Shown here: positions 13,664-19,468 of the stretch, piece by piece
Position numbering within the stretch: the stretch's first letter is position 1
Layout: every line of letters starts with the position of its first letter
DNA from: Pirellulales bacterium
Lineage (GTDB): Bacteria; Planctomycetota; Planctomycetia; Pirellulales; Lacipirellulaceae
Direction of reading: 5' to 3'
NCBI GenBank assembly: GCA_022448265.1
Contig: JAKVCC010000003.1
Coordinates: 124,001 to 188,000, forward strand
Length of the DNA stretch: 64,000 nt
Translations under genes and position numbers: made by a program
Notes under the pieces: model-generated
Database searches by the model: none
What the model was told of the DNA's origin: nothing
Seen by the model: only the letters and a program-made list of their open reading frames with translations

Positions 13664-15025
13664 TTAACGCAAAATCGACGTCTTGCTTTTGGCGGCCGTC
13701 TGTTCCGATTCGGGGGGTATCAATTCCAACGACTCGACGAGCTGACGATCGCTGTCGTTGAATTGCTGGAGCATCGATTGCTCCACGGTGACCGCAAGCG
13801 AAACCCGCGGTAGTCCGTCGGCGGCGATCAGGTAGTAACGCCACTCGATGGGCACGCCCTGGACTTCGCCCATAGCGATCACGCCCAAACATCCATAGCC
13901 CTGGGCGGTGGCCCAATGGGTCGAAGCGACCACTGTTTCCAGGCTCTCGCCCAGCGAATCGCGCACGTCGCGTTCGAATTGGTCGAGGCTAGTCGCTCGG
14001 CCCTGGGAACGGGCGGGCAAGGCAGTTAGGTTGCAGTGTGCCACCAGGTCGCCGTCTTTCATGTAGCGGAGCGATAACAGTTCGCTTTGCTCACCCGTGA
14101 CGTACCAGGCTTTGTCGTGCGTGAAGCGATAGCCCTTGGTTCCCGCGTCAAACAACAAGTCCCGGCCGACCGGCAGCGACTGATTCGCTGCGAGTCGGGC
14201 CTGATCGTCGGTGATCGTTGGAGTATCGCTAATATCTTGGAGGGTGATTGAAATTTTCGCGACGATGTCCAGGCCAGGCACGATTTCGCTGGCCGTTCGA
14301 AGCTCTTTGATTGCCAGATTGAACTTCGCAATTCGTTTTTCCCCCAGGTCAAAAAGATAGGCACCACGGAGTTCCATCTCGGTGGGTGCTCCATCCATTG
14401 TGCCGTGTACCGTGCCGGCAAGGCGGAGTTGGACCCCGTTGTGGTCCGCACCGGCGACCACGCTTGCCACCTCGCAGGCGGCGACGTGATCCAGGCCCAA
14501 CAGCGGACCGATCGCAGTGATCGGGTGGTCCCAGGTTTCGCCCTCGGCGACCGCGCGGTCTGGCAACAATCGCTGGAGGGCCAGAGTATTGCCTACCGTA
14601 TTGAGCAGATCATACTGCTGTCGCGACAATGGTCTTTCCGTGCCGTTTAGCGCACTCCGATTGTCGTGCACTTCCGCGATCACCCGCTGCGCACTGGCAG
14701 ATAGCGCCCGCCGCTCGCCGCCGTCCCCGACTTGAATATCGGCTGTGGCGTTTTGGTAGCAGCGTAACGATCGCGCCGTGCCGCTAGCTGACCAAGCTAG
14801 CAATCGCTCCTCGTAGCACAGCTCGCCGCGGACCGAGAGCGGCAGCTTCTCCGGTGTTTCGGCATCGCGGATTGATAGATCGCCGCCGACCCGTAGCTTG
14901 ACCAAGGCGACCCAGGAGTCGCCAGCAGCCAGATCAGGGGCGAGCAGGAAACCCGGCTCGTCAGCGGTCACTGCTAGGCACGTGGTCGCCGACCAGACAA
15001 AGAGACACAAGAGCAGTAATCGCAT
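13664..15025 (-). CDS. secreted protein of unknown function
   Basis: A 453-residue protein not matched to a named family. It begins with a clear signal peptide (MRLLLLCLFVWSATTCLAV, cleavage likely near AVTADE). The mature part is mostly polar, with no membrane segment, no catalytic motif I can name and few cysteines. Internal phrases such as LPDRAVAEGETWDHP and ATSLDQFERDVRDSL resemble planctomycete exported proteins of unknown role. It is divergent from the sigma-factor gene across 558 bp. Confidence 0.75.
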   Translation of the reverse strand: MRLLLLCLFVWSATTCLAVTADEPGFLLAPDLAAGDSWVALVKLRVGGDLSIRDAETPEKLPLSVRGELCYEERLLAWSASGTARSLRCYQNATADIQVGDGGERRALSASAQRVIAEVHDNRSALNGTERPLSRQQYDLLNTVGNTLALQRLLPDRAVAEGETWDHPITAIGPLLGLDHVAACEVASVVAGADHNGVQLRLAGTVHGTMDGAPTEMELRGAYLFDLGEKRIAKFNLAIKELRTASEIVPGLDIVAKISITLQDISDTPTITDDQARLAANQSLPVGRDLLFDAGTKGYRFTHDKAWYVTGEQSELLSLRYMKDGDLVAHCNLTALPARSQGRATSLDQFERDVRDSLGESLETVVASTHWATAQGYGCLGVIAMGEVQGVPIEWRYYLIAADGLPRVSLAVTVEQSMLQQFNDSDRQLVESLELIPPESEQTAAKSKTSILR

Positions 15026-15583
15026 AGGTTTAGGTCCTTAACGCGGGCTAGTAGGCTGCGCTTCGCCTAGCCGTTGCGCCGCGCACGGGCACACCCAGGG
15101 CGGTCATCGTCTTTCCGGGTGTCGGTCAGTTTGGCCGAAAGTCGCGGGCCTAAGAGGTTACCGAAGTTGCCCAGGACCCCAAACTGCGAATCTGAACGGC
15201 GGAGGTGTGCAAAGATAGCGAAAAATACCAAGAATTTACCTAAGTCATTTTGCAAAAACGTTTTACGGCACGTTCATCCGGTCTGGCGCACCACTGCTAG
15301 GTCGCTTAGGACGAACTTTCTCTCGACCCGCCAGCACTAATCTGCGTACAACCATTAGCCTTCAGTGGGCTAGCGTGGCTAGCGTGGGAAGGCAGAGCCG
15401 ACTGAAGGGGCGGCCGAAACCTTGGGCACAATTTTTTTAACGGTCCGAGTAGCCGCTTGGCGCCGCGATTCGGAGTGGGGGAAATAGCACCAGCAAGGCC
15501 TGCCGAACACGTGGGCGAAATGAGTCGAACGGAACGGGGCGCAAACTCACAACAGAGTGGCATACTCTGAGAAGGGGTGGACC
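15026..15583. other. 558-bp divergent intergenic region
   Basis: It lies between the secreted-protein gene and the sigma factor. I see no coding frame with protein-like character. It contains short GGCTAGCGT direct repeats at about 15370-15390 and a T7 tract at about 15432. GAAGGGGTGG just before 15584 is the ribosome-binding site of the sigma factor. Confidence 0.5.
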
Positions 15584-17248
15584 ATGCACACAGAATACCG
15601 CAATCCAGTGATTCGTTGGCTCGGGGAGCGACAATGCCATCAGGCCTCCAGTGAGGCGCTGCTCAAGCAACTGGAGGCGACCGAGTCGGTAATCGCTGGT
15701 TTGGAGCCGAACAAGAGTTACGCGGCCGCGAAAATAGTATCGGAAATTGTGGGTGAGTCGTTGCCGGAAGCCGGCAATCGAAAAATTCCCGCTGCCGATT
15801 TGCAACACGATCTACGTTTGCTTATCGAAGACCTGTCAGACATTGCCAGTCTTAGCGCCGATGCGGTTGGCGAGCAGGTGTTTACCGTTGAGCAATTGGC
15901 CCGGCAGTTCAACGTTTCGACTAAGACAATCTCGCGCTGGCGGGCAATAGGGCTCGTGAGCCGTCGCCTCGTTTTTGACGGTCGTAAACGGGTAGGTTTT
16001 TTGCGGAGCAGTGTCGACCGCTTTGTGAAGAACAATTCCGATCGCGTCCAGCGTGGGTCGCGTTTCAGCCAGTTGACTGAACAGCAGCGGCAGGACTATG
16101 TGGATCGGGCCAGACAAATGGCACATGCAGGGGGTGGCCAGGCCGAGATCGCGCGGCAATTGGCTGAGCGTACAGGCCGTAGTGTCGAAACGATCCGCAC
16201 CGCCCTTCGTTTGCACGATCTGGAAAACCCCGACAAGGCAGTCTTTCCAGCCGGCGGCGGGCCGCTGACCGACCTGCAAAAAACCAACATCTTCCGTGCC
16301 TACTGCCGTGGGACCTCGGTCGAGAAGCTGTGCGGTGACTACAATCGAACCAAAACCACCGTCTACCGTGTGATCAATGAGATGCGCGCTGAGCGGATTG
16401 CCGATCTGCCTCTCGACTACATGGAAAACCCTCGATTTTCGCGTAAAGGAGCAGAAAAAACCTGCCTGGGCCCCTTGCCCAGGAGTGGTTCGGTGCCCCG
16501 GAAGCCAAAGCGTCCGACTGGGCTACCGCCCTATCTGGCCAGCCTGTACGAAATCCGACTACTGACCAAGGAGCAGGAGCAGCACCTGTTCCGCGCGTAC
16601 AATTTCCTTAAATTCCAGGCTGCGCGGCTGCGTGAACAGCTCGACTTGGAGAATCCCAAGTCGTCGCTGATGGACGAGATCGAGCGGCTCTACGCACAAA
16701 TCGTAGATACCAAGAACAAGATTGCCCGCTGCAATTTGAGGCTGGTCGTATCCATCGCCAAACGGCACGTGTCGCCCGACCAAAACTTTTTCGAGTTGGT
16801 CAGCGACGGCAATCTCTCGCTACTCCGTGCGATCGAAAAGTTTGACTTTGCCCTTGGGAACAAGTTTAGCACGTACGCAAGCTGGGCAATTATGAAGAAT
16901 TATGCGCGCACCATACCCGGGGAATACCGGTTGCGGGATCGTTTTCGCACGAGTCACGACGAGGTTTTCGATCTTACCCAGGAACATCGCGGGAACCCAG
17001 TGGTGGAGGAGGCGCGGCAGCAGGACCGCGTCGCCAAGATCCAGCGAGTCTTGCAGCAGCTGGACGACCGCGAGCGGCAAATCATCGTGGGGCGGTTTGG
17101 CCTGGATCATTCGCGAGAGCCGCGGACCTTGAAAGAGGTTGGGGCGGAGCTGGGTGTGACTAAGGAGCGCATCCGGCAGATTGAAGCCCGTGCCCTCCAT
17201 AAGCTCCGCGTAGCAGCCCAAGAGCAGCAGATTGCCCTGGATCTCTAG
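15584..17248 (+). CDS. sigma-70 family factor with long HTH-rich N-terminal region
   Basis: A 554-residue RNA polymerase sigma factor. Region 2 spans about 375-445 (ARCNLRLVVSIAKRH, DGNLSLLRAIEKFDFALGNK, FSTYASWAIMKNYAR). Region 4 spans about 485-545 (LDDRERQIIVGRFGL, LKEVGAELGVTKERIRQIE). Only about 40 residues lie between them, so region 3 seems reduced or absent. The first 320 residues are unlike standard sigma factors. They hold a MerR/excisionase-like helix-turn-helix (about 99-148, FTVEQLARQFNVSTKTISRW), a second HTH-like segment (about 185-211) and a third (about 243-271). ATG 15584 follows GAAGGGGTGG; a GTG at 15557 is less likely. Target promoters are unknown. It is followed by the tRNA-tuf promoter. 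Confidence 0.9.
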   Translation: MHTEYRNPVIRWLGERQCHQASSEALLKQLEATESVIAGLEPNKSYAAAKIVSEIVGESLPEAGNRKIPAADLQHDLRLLIEDLSDIASLSADAVGEQVFTVEQLARQFNVSTKTISRWRAIGLVSRRLVFDGRKRVGFLRSSVDRFVKNNSDRVQRGSRFSQLTEQQRQDYVDRARQMAHAGGGQAEIARQLAERTGRSVETIRTALRLHDLENPDKAVFPAGGGPLTDLQKTNIFRAYCRGTSVEKLCGDYNRTKTTVYRVINEMRAERIADLPLDYMENPRFSRKGAEKTCLGPLPRSGSVPRKPKRPTGLPPYLASLYEIRLLTKEQEQHLFRAYNFLKFQAARLREQLDLENPKSSLMDEIERLYAQIVDTKNKIARCNLRLVVSIAKRHVSPDQNFFELVSDGNLSLLRAIEKFDFALGNKFSTYASWAIMKNYARTIPGEYRLRDRFRTSHDEVFDLTQEHRGNPVVEEARQQDRVAKIQRVLQQLDDRERQIIVGRFGLDHSREPRTLKEVGAELGVTKERIRQIEARALHKLRVAAQEQQIALDL

Positions 17249-17481: not shown

Positions 17482-17554
17482 GCTAGCGTAGCTCAATTGG
17501 CAGAGCAGCTGATTTGTAATCAGCAGGTTGTGGGTTCAATTCCCTCCGCTAGCT
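17482..17554 (+). tRNA. tRNA-Thr (anticodon TGT)
   Basis: Cloverleaf of 73 bases. Acceptor GCTAGCG pairs with CGCTAGC; the anticodon stem GCTGA/TCAGC holds loop TTTGTAA with anticodon TGT, reading ACA. The T-loop is TTCAATT, with one T-T mismatch in the T-stem. The 3' CCA is not encoded. Confidence 0.93.
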
Positions 17555-17698
17555 CTCGCCAGGGGCCGTCTAGCTGGGTTCGTGAGTCTGGGGCAACTCG
17601 TCGAGGCAAGTACGAACAGGCGGTATGCAGGTCGGTTTGATCGACACATTTACGAGTCAACTGACGTAATCCGATTGACGCAATCTGGTTGTGCTGAC

Positions 17699-17780
17699 GG
17701 GGGGTTACCGAAGCGGTCAAACGGGGCAGACTGTAAATCTGCTGGCTCTGCCTTCGCAGGTTCGAATCCTGCACCCCCCA
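17699..17780 (+). tRNA. tRNA-Tyr (anticodon GTA)
   Basis: 82 bases with the long variable arm expected for bacterial tRNA-Tyr. Acceptor GGGGGGT pairs with ACCCCCC; the anticodon stem GCAGA/TCTGC holds loop CTGTAAA with anticodon GTA. T-arm GCAGG-TTCGAAT-CCTGC. CCA is not encoded. Confidence 0.95.
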
Positions 17781-17807
17781 TTAATTGAATTGCGGTTTTG
17801 GGATTTT

Positions 17808-17850
17808 GGATTGCGGATTGGAGTAAAGGACGATGGCCAATCCGCAATCC
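17808..17850. repeat. 14-bp inverted repeat in tRNA spacer
   Basis: GGATTGCGGATTGG and CCAATCCGCAATCC are perfect inverted copies around a 15-base loop, between tRNA-Tyr and tRNA-Gly. Degenerate ACAATCC words follow. In the co-transcript this would be a strong hairpin, possibly a processing signal. Confidence 0.7.
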
Positions 17851-17876
17851 ACAATCCACAATCCGAAATTCAGCAG

Positions 17877-17947
17877 GCGGGTGTAGCTCAATGGTAGAGC
17901 AACAGCCTTCCAAGCTGATGACGAGGGTTCGATTCCCTTCACCCGCT
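17877..17947 (+). tRNA. tRNA-Gly (anticodon TCC)
   Basis: 71 bases. Acceptor GCGGGTG pairs with CACCCGC; the anticodon stem CAGC/GCTG region holds CTTCCAA with anticodon TCC, reading GGA. T-loop TTCGATT. CCA is not encoded. Confidence 0.94.
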
Positions 17948-17986
17948 TTAAGAGGCGAATCGCTGTTGGCTACTGGTTGCTTGTTG

Positions 17987-18067
17987 GCGATTGGTAGCTG
18001 CAGGTTGGCGGTTGGTGGCGGAGGTATTGAAGAAAAGATTTTTTGTCGACAGCCGGTGGCCAATCGC
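17987..18067. repeat. inverted repeat in second tRNA spacer
   Basis: GCGATTGG (17987-17994) and CCAATCGC (18060-18067) bracket the spacer between tRNA-Gly and tRNA-Thr. It is also filled with degenerate GGTTGGC words. The element parallels the one in the Tyr-Gly spacer. Confidence 0.5.
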
Positions 18068-18071
18068 ATCC

Positions 18072-18143
<72 letters not shown>

Positions 18144-18268
18144 CTCAGAATCCACTGGTCAATACATGATTCAGCTAATACATACGGCTAATACGCAACG
18201 CTCGGATAATTGACAATTCCATTTTTGTCACAGAAACACACGTCCCCAAGACAAGGTTAGGGAGAAAA

Positions 18269-19468
18269 ATGGCTAAGGATACATTTGAACGCTCAAAGCC
18301 GCACGTCAACGTGGGCACAATCGGCCACATCGATCACGGTAAAACCACAACCACCGGAGCGATTCTGGCGGTCCAGTCAACCAAGGGGCTGGCTCAGGCT
18401 AAGTCCTATGCCGACATCGCTAAGGGCGGTACGGTTCGTGACGAAACCAAGACCGTCACAATTGCCGTCGCGCACGTCGAATACGAAAGCGAGAAGCGGC
18501 ACTATGCTCACATCGACTGCCCGGGTCACGCCGACTTCATCAAAAATATGATTACTGGGGCCGCACAGATGGACGGCGCCATTCTGGTGGTGTCGGCTGC
18601 AGACGGCCCCATGCCTCAGACGCGTGAACATATCTTGCTTGCTCGGCAAGTGGGTGTTCCCCGGATCGTGGTATTCATGAACAAGTGCGACCTCGTCGAC
18701 GACGAAGAGCTGCTCGAGCTGGTCGAGTTGGAAATCCGCGAGTTGCTTTCGCTATACGGTTTTCCCGGCGATGAGGTGCCGCTGGTGCGAGGCAACGCCA
18801 AGGCGGCGATCGAAACTCCCGAGGACGAAGCGTCGGCGAAGTGCATCGGCGAGTTGATGGAGGCTATAGATGCTTACATTCCCGAGCCGGTTCGCGAAAA
18901 TGACAAGCCATTCTTGATGGCCGTTGAAGACGTCTTCTCGATCGAAGGCCGTGGAACTGTTGCGACCGGACGTATCGAGCGTGGCGTAGTGAAAGTCGGT
19001 GAAGAGGTTGAGATCATCGGTCTGACCGATGCACCTACAAAGACGACATGCACTGGTGTGGAAGCCTTCAACAAGACCATGGACGAGGGTTTTGCCGGCG
19101 ACAATGTTGGTTGTCTGTTGCGAGGTGTTAAGCGCGAAGATATCCAGCGAGGTCAAGTGCTTGCGAAGCCTGGGAGCATCACCCCGCACACCAAGTTTGA
19201 GGCTGAAGTTTATGTTTTGAGTAAGGAAGAGGGCGGGCGGCACACGCCATTTTTCAGTGGCTATCGTCCGCAGTTCTACTTCCGAACCACCGATGTGACT
19301 GGCACGGCCAACTTGGTCGGCGATGCGGAAATGTGTATGCCCGGTGACAACGCGCGTTTGTCCGTCGAGTTGATGAAGCCCATTGCCATGGATGACGGAG
19401 TGCGATTCGCGATTCGCGAGGGCGGAAAAACGGTTGGCTCGGGAGTTGTGACTAAAATTGTTGAGTAG
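18269..19468 (+). CDS. tuf: elongation factor Tu
   Basis: The GTPase that carries aminoacyl-tRNA to the ribosome. The 399 residues contain all G motifs: GHIDHGKTT (G1), DCPGHADF (G3) and NKCD (G4); [16 protein letters not shown] and the effector-region [17 protein letters not shown] are also present. Domains II and III follow ([20 protein letters not shown], then [21 protein letters not shown]). Length is normal. ATG 18269 is preceded by TAGGGAGAAAA, a good ribosome-binding site. It lies 125 bp after tRNA-Thr with no promoter that I can see, so it is probably co-transcribed with the tRNAs. Confidence 0.98.

Follow-up and report, generated by a model that had tools for sequence, protein, structure and literature searches.

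Sequence upstream of promoters is usually read for sigma factors by separate activators; a sigma factor that carries its own DNA-reading array, if true, would select promoters in a new way, one polypeptide doing the work of both activator and sigma elsewhere. Among the described sigma factors, the primary sigmas use a tryptophan dyad, a glutamine and a threonine of region 2.3-2.4 at the -10 element, and ECF sigmas are without region 3. Planctomycetes have an unusual cell biology, and little is known about their transcription control. In the available part of an essential-gene study of P. limnophila, the sigma factor mentioned is the housekeeping sigma (PMC10632474), and the available text of another study places R. 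baltica RB12251, a protein of 567 aa and pI 9.4, among the genes whose expression falls under heat, cold and salt (PMC2754498). Judged by the size and charge given in that text, RB12251 may be an orthologue of the protein discussed here, referred to as HTH-sigma. No description of the HTH-sigma family was found in the open-access literature.

The protein is encoded in the window, i.e., the whole stretch of 64,000 nucleotides that was analysed, and is laid out as follows:

15584..17248, + strand: sigma factor gene, 554 aa, ATG to TAG, frame unbroken
15584..15877, + strand: residues 1-98, helical/beta N-terminal domain, acidic (pI 4.8), model helices 8-88
15878..16039, + strand: HTH1, residues 99-152, winged HTH, excisionase/MerR-like, recognition stretch STKTISRWR
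16073..16225, + strand: HTH2, residues 164-214, from AlphaFold helices, weaker by sequence
16259..16414, + strand: HTH3, residues 226-277, HTH_23/Mor-like, from profiles and structural alignment
16517..16708, + strand: residues 312-375, putative region 1.2-like segment and lead-in to region 2, from structural alignment
16709..16924, + strand: sigma region 2, residues 376-447, from Pfam, altered in 2.3-2.4 (FSTYASWAIMKNYAR)
16925..17035, + strand: short linker replacing region 3, residues 448-484, from landmark distance, pLDDT < 50 at 447-469
17036..17221, + strand: sigma region 4, residues 485-546, from Pfam

An alternative in-frame GTG start at 15557 would add nine residues; in most relatives the gene has an ATG at the corresponding position. 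AlphaFold models reached a mean pLDDT of 83.9 at full length (76 sequences) and 84.6 for residues 1-313 (63 sequences), with a pTM of only 0.46 and 0.54, respectively, so that the placing of the HTH domains relative to each other is poorly determined.

The protein is almost certainly a member of the sigma-70 family with three HTH domains. Regions 2 and 4 are as clear as the original prediction, made from the sequence letters, had described them: Pfam finds Sigma70_r2 (PF04542) at 382-436 (E 2.9e-11, 43.4 bits vs. a cut-off of 24) and Sigma70_r4 (PF04545) at 489-542 (E 8.4e-20, 70.5 bits vs. 24.1), and both, along with HTH_23 and HTH_17, are matched at E <= 0.01 in 76/76 alignment members, the window protein included. 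The near absence of region 3, which had also been claimed, was confirmed by landmark distances. The FSTYA motif and the region-4 recognition helix are separated by 98 residues in 114 class sequences out of 124 (by 97 in another, with nine unparsed; the set was not de-duplicated and counts some genomes twice), leaving no room for region 3 in comparison to the 156 residues between the same landmarks in the RpoD-like protein of the same genome, where Pfam finds Sigma70_r3. Residues 312-447 of the model superpose on regions 1.2-2 of sigma-A/sigma-70 chains (rmsd 2.9-3.6 over 128-137 residues), and the factor is therefore not simply an ECF sigma with an extension. Within this stretch, residues 312-375 look like region 1.2 and the lead-in to region 2 in the predicted structure; the Pfam region 1.2 model is not among the best 25 of the 32 matches listed for the protein.

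Region 2 reads FSTY[AS][ST]WA[IV][MVI][KR]N[FY]AR[TS]IP in the 115 parsed class sequences, and the three RpoD-like proteins of the same genome read F[SC]TYATWWIRQAITRA[IV]ADQ and include WWIRQAIT. The WW dyad has become WA in 115/115 parsed sequences, the glutamine K (114) or R (1), and the threonine A (115); as these residues of primary sigmas are all replaced, HTH-sigma is expected to recognise another -10 sequence. The region-4 recognition helix remains close to that of primary sigmas, with VTKERIRQIEA vs. VTRERIRQIEA of SigA. The genome encodes three RpoD-like sigmas with the WW dyad (560, 636 and 544 aa) and one 323-aa sigma, and Sigma70_r3 was found by Pfam in both RpoD-like paralogues scanned. 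Given these separate RpoD-like sigmas, with region 3 in the two scanned, HTH-sigma is not the housekeeping factor, an identity that its missing region 3, its changed -10 residues and its RpoD score below the curated cut-off (TIGR02393, 136.8 vs. 354 bits) also speak against. Identity with MzaA, the sigma-like protein of a defence system, was rejected as well (134 bits vs. a cut-off of 800; the matched stretch is region 2 with its lead-in).

About 320 N-terminal residues had been predicted to hold a MerR/excisionase-like HTH and two further HTH-like segments, and three HTHs are indeed seen when profiles and AlphaFold are combined, the model of residues 1-313 placing the predicted folds at 99-152, ~164-214 and ~226-277. 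HTH1 is modelled with helices 102-109 and 113-122, a wing at 127-140 and a helix at 141-150, i.e., an HTH with a beta-hairpin wing, which is the excisionase-type winged HTH fold; HTH2 is modelled with helices 166-181, 186-197 and 201-214, and HTH3 with helices 230-241, 246-253 and 257-274. Pfam recognizes HTH_23 at 230-275 (E 5.9e-11, 42.3 bits vs. a cut-off of 24.6), Mor (PF08765) over HTH3 (30.1 vs. 24.9 bits) and HTH_36 at 88-120 (31.3 vs. 25 bits), and HTH_28 also exceeds its cut-off. MerR and HTH_17 match residues 100-151 below their Pfam cut-offs, with the curated MerR cut-off not reached by HTH1 (MerR 20.3 vs. 28.2 bits; MerR_1 20.1 vs. 21.6), and PHROG 66 (excisionase) matches residues 9-172 (E 1.5e-9). 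The assignment of HTH2 comes mainly from the AlphaFold model and is accordingly a predicted one.

Structural comparison of the N-terminal model by VIA, in which most rows concern residues 164-277 and few concern HTH1, aligned HTH1 (98-152) with 7lwr_A, a viral DNA-packaging DNA-binding domain that we take to be lambda gpNu1 (Z 7.2, rmsd 2.6, 53 residues), and HTH3 (225-277) with numerous HTHs, among them sigma-4 domains, KorA and Mu C (Z 6.5-8.1 and, for the most part, rmsd 0.8-3.0); Z values of this kind denote a common fold, not kinship. Foldseek returned nothing at E <= 1e-3 for the N-terminal model, its match of HTH1 to 7lwr having a probability of 0.94, a target TM-score of 0.76 and an E of 1.0. 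For the full-length model both programs list sigma chains. HTH1 is strongly basic (pI 12) and is the best conserved domain of the N-terminus, its recognition stretch STKT[IV]xRWR being present in 121 of the 124 class sequences, a set that was not de-duplicated. HTH1, at least, probably binds DNA.

The N-terminal HTHs could instead restrain the sigma or contact a protein partner, in the manner of region 1.1 or of the regulatory extensions of ECF sigmas. Regulatory extensions on sigmas are known, as described in the available text of PMC8999054, residues 1-98 are acidic, and the HTHs similar to HTH3 include sigma-4-like ones that bind proteins as well, e.g., the sigma-like domain of PhyR; nevertheless, it is the basic HTH1 with its predicted DNA-recognition stretch that is best conserved, and three consecutive HTHs are hard to explain without DNA, making an inhibitory or adaptor role rather unlikely. 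DNA reading by the array is the preferred interpretation. The hybrid of activator and sigma originally proposed thus holds in its architecture, which is kept across the class, and in the support found for its HTH folds, and DNA binding by the N-terminus and recruitment of polymerase are the parts that we infer.

In a family search across planctomycetes, 244 of the 248 class genomes had a match to the N-terminus at E <= 0.001 (219 of 222 good ones, and 130/130 genera), which shows that the combination is not a stray fusion. There is one match in 230 class genomes, among them the window's own, and two to four in 14. The four misses consist of two assemblies with more than 1400 contigs, one genome that is 68% complete, and G437 (99% complete), in whose genus other members match weakly. 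A profile search of the phylum, in which absences are soft because the best seven candidates per genome were scored, found the N-terminus in at least 57 of 294 genomes; 50 had E < 1e-20, 29 of these outside the class. Relatives include Bythopirellula, Lacipirellula, Adhaeretor, Botrimarina and Aeoliella, and N-terminal identity to the window protein is 40-75% in 13 class members and 29-31% in five outsiders.

Such HTHs do occur in phage proteins, as the PHROG excisionase and late-activator matches illustrate, and the protein could in principle be a degenerate or ordinary old fusion of a sigma with a transposase-like HTH that has no special role. This is highly improbable in view of its presence throughout the class, the length of 551-578 residues in 75 complete copies among 80 Pirellulales loci, and the lack of an internal stop in any listed N-terminus match of the class search. 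A plasmid or viral origin was likewise rejected, as the N-terminus has no match in plasmids and one viral contig shares only residues 97-119. In a genome of another class (G270:C3:289306-290148, - strand), the relative lies within an open frame of 968 residues vs. the usual 555, possibly a further fusion. Two large genomes of one family, G408 and G436, have three and four N-terminus matches, which may be paralogues or may come from foreign contigs, given 6% and 8% contamination.

The gene has the following neighbours:

13664..15025, - strand: divergent neighbour, signal-peptide-like protein of 453 aa, no Pfam match
17482..19468, + strand: downstream context of tRNA-Thr, Tyr, Gly and Thr, tuf, then tRNA-Trp, secE, nusG, rplK and rplA

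Of 80 Pirellulales loci, 74 have a match to the divergent neighbour upstream of the sigma gene and on the other strand, three of the six remaining loci holding less than 0.8 kb of upstream sequence; no match to it lay in the 1.5 kb preceding the sigma gene in the one other order compared. It could be a co-regulated target. Downstream, tuf lies within 3.5 kb of the sigma gene in 29 of the 52 loci with that much sequence. An imperfect inverted repeat at 17784-17874, between tRNA-Tyr and tRNA-Gly, looks like a small repeat element; the weak microRNA matches that it gives on either strand stay well under the Rfam gathering scores.

Alignment of the family's upstream regions revealed a conserved promoter-like element and, closer to the gene, a leader RNA hairpin:

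15311..15352, + strand: conserved promoter-like element, from aligned upstream regions, its CGTA ending 235 bases before the ATG
15313..15318, + strand: GAACTT block of the element
15323..15328, + strand: TCGACC block
~15335..15340, + strand: CACTAA block
15345..15352, + strand: CGTACAAC block
15508..15543, + strand: leader hairpin in a degenerate copy; intact, covarying copies occur in many Pirellulales relatives

Family members share GAACTTTCT[AC]TCGACC followed at a fixed distance by CGTACAAC. GAAC-N26..30-CGTA occurs upstream in 77 of 128 distinct relatives (138 sequences before de-duplication) vs. about four in Markov controls: in 24/33 and 39/71 of two Pirellulales-dominated sets and in 14/15 of the other order. 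By the same pattern test it is absent from 51 of the 128, including 9/9 from other classes. A stricter pattern is found in 23/33, 36/71, 12/15 and, for the other classes, 0/9, and in these 71 matches the CGTA ends a median of 243 bases (range 78-409) before the start codon. GAACTT-N26-CGTA is seen 41 times vs. a maximum of two at any spacing in 20 shuffles. In one relative, L045, the promoter core is duplicated in tandem at ~1130-1210, upstream of the sigma gene (GACCCAATTCCGTCTTACTGCGTACAA twice).

The GAAC and CGTC/CGTA blocks are, we assume, of an ECF-like kind. From its sequence the element may be read as a -35 GAACTT, a spacer of 16-17 bases and a -10 of CGTC or CACT/GACT, with CGTA near the start; TCGACC-N18-TACAAC, also present in the family, would be an alternative, primary-like promoter. 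In the other order the block is TTCGCATGCGAACTTTTT-N-CGTC-N-CGTA, and a palindrome, TTCGCATGCGAA, often overlaps the element, being recognisable over GAAC in 8/15. It is not present at the window copy and was seen in that one order only.

Strong matches to the element were found at the sigma gene only. A promoter profile was built from 28 of 32 sequences, picked by.AAC-N28-CGTA with CGACC preferred, so that those columns are conserved partly by choice; L041, L077, L090 and L091, with no element at N28 spacing, were dropped. All 24 of its matches at E < 1e-3 lie at the sigma gene (23 of 30 family genomes, best 150 candidates per genome), where matches are expected of a profile made from sigma-gene promoters, the news being that no other strong site was found in these 30 genomes. 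These searches gave no target besides the sigma's own gene; as they scored the best 100-150 candidates per genome, they may miss weaker sites. The window's own genome has one match to the element pattern at up to three mismatches. Across 22 genomes of the other order, 11/11 matches to TTCGCATGCGAACTTTTT at up to one mismatch are at the sigma gene, and two-mismatch matches to the palindrome number six at the sigma gene and ten elsewhere vs. four for a backward control. A further cis-site pattern, of too rigid a spacing, matched in 2 of 14 genomes.

A self-regulating DNA-binding protein would be expected to leave such a trace, a site retained at a single gene among relatives so far apart; a single conserved site could also stem from another regulator. 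HTH-sigma might also repress its own promoter, with its sigma half serving separate genes and an ECF or housekeeping sigma driving the promoter, the latter through TCGACC-N18-TACAAC. The palindrome over the -35-like GAACTT in one order is in a classic repressor position, the strong element matches are confined to the sigma gene, and a region-4 helix so near that of SigA does not obviously favour GAACTT. Self-repression is still unlikely, as relatives without a conserved TCGACC retain GAAC and CGTA at the conserved spacing, and scanning the gene's upstream region for consensus sites gave none of the sigma-70 type. Recognition of its own promoter by the sigma is the reading slightly favoured by these sequence patterns.

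The leader hairpin has the layout stem1-GGGCG-loop-CGC-ANGGAACA-CC-stem1' and mostly ends 26-56 bases before the ATG. It is found in 52 of the 104 sequences of the two Pirellulales-dominated sets vs. ~0.35 in controls, and by the same pattern test in 0/15 of the other order and 0/9 of other classes; a looser pattern matches 60 of 128 upstream regions vs. 5 of 128 when reversed. Thirty-six of these 60 leaders were aligned; 18 of one set were left out, as were six others (L072, L080, L099, L110, L120 and L143) that are near-copies, oddly placed or weak. Two-sided changes occupy 77 cells vs. 31.8 +- 5.4 in shuffled alignments (0/500 as high), the covariation score is 0.359 vs. 0.152 (0/500), and eight of the nine stem-1 pairs show a two-sided change; the total of nine hairpin pairs with such a change was reached by 49/500 shuffles. 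Paired cells make up 81% vs. 31-44% when the sequences are slid, a percentage that leans towards the outer stem as this was chosen from single sequences and then counted. RNAalifold alone gives only a 3-bp inner stem for the alignment.

A covariance model of the leader, run on 57 genomes of the order, has all of its 16 best hits (E <= 3.9e-4) before the sigma gene; some hit at E <= 1 occurs in 43 of the 57, and 21 of 30 loci are at the sigma gene. The hits elsewhere (e.g., L197, E 5e-4) are weak and were taken as chance. The window's own copy has no Rfam match at E up to 1. All 36 aligned leaders carry CANGGA, which recalls the CsrA site consensus; the GGA of the loop varies. CsrA genes were matched in 59/59 class genomes, 2 to 17 times each and six times in the window's genome; CsrA as the regulator of the leader is a guess.

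Taken together, the odds appear about even that HTH-sigma is an alternative sigma specific to its lineage, equipped with an integral DNA-binding array and recognising its own promoter at the least, as judged from sequence conservation and predicted structure. In the proposed mechanism, the region 1.2-like, region 2 and region 4 parts would hold core RNA polymerase and open promoters, with regions 2 and 4 reading the -10 and -35 elements. The array, one excisionase/MerR-like winged HTH and two simpler HTHs in front of the sigma part, would read a site overlapping or abutting the -35 region and thereby tether or position the holoenzyme. The sigma's own gene, at least, would be under such control (autoregulation), and in Pirellulales the leader hairpin close to the ribosome-binding site may add translational control. 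That the array and the sigma parts act together on one promoter is a tentative proposal. Equally tentative is the suggestion that the sigma is its own activator, in which case the array would read an operator at the -35 edge, regions 2 and 4 an ECF-like promoter, and the level of the protein would be set by self-recognition at a dedicated promoter and by the new leader RNA; autoregulation would then be positive in sign.

Present in nearly every sampled genome of the class, HTH-sigma with such an array would be a strong candidate for a planctomycete global regulator, an idea that can be put to direct test now that the promoter-like element and leader hairpin are mapped. Its parts are of known kinds, and what is without description in the open-access literature is their combination and the conservation of that combination across the class, along with the promoter-like element and the leader RNA. 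HTH-sigma and MzaA are alike in regions 2 and 4, the HTH part not being in the matched stretch shown. The excisionase/MerR-type winged HTHs (7lwr, PHROG 66) share the fold of HTH1; however, HTH1 sits in a sigma factor, is below the Pfam MerR cut-off, and its Foldseek E is only 1.0. The late activators Mor and C of phage Mu (PF08765) resemble HTH3, with Mu C at Z 6.9 and rmsd 2.1, but only the HTH is shared, Mor and C being separate activators and not parts of a sigma. Compared to RpoD/SigA (group 1), the region 1.2-like segment and regions 2 and 4 align and the region-4 recognition helix is almost identical, whereas HTH-sigma is without region 3, has ~310 extra residues with three HTHs, and carries FSTYASWAIMKN in region 2.3-2.4 where the RpoD-like proteins of its own genome carry F[SC]TYATWWIRQAIT. 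The ECF (group 4) sigmas are similar to HTH-sigma in lacking region 3; HTH-sigma differs from them in keeping the region 1.2-like segment, and its extension, N-terminal, ~310 residues long and HTH-rich, is unlike the ECF extensions described in the available text of PMC8999054.
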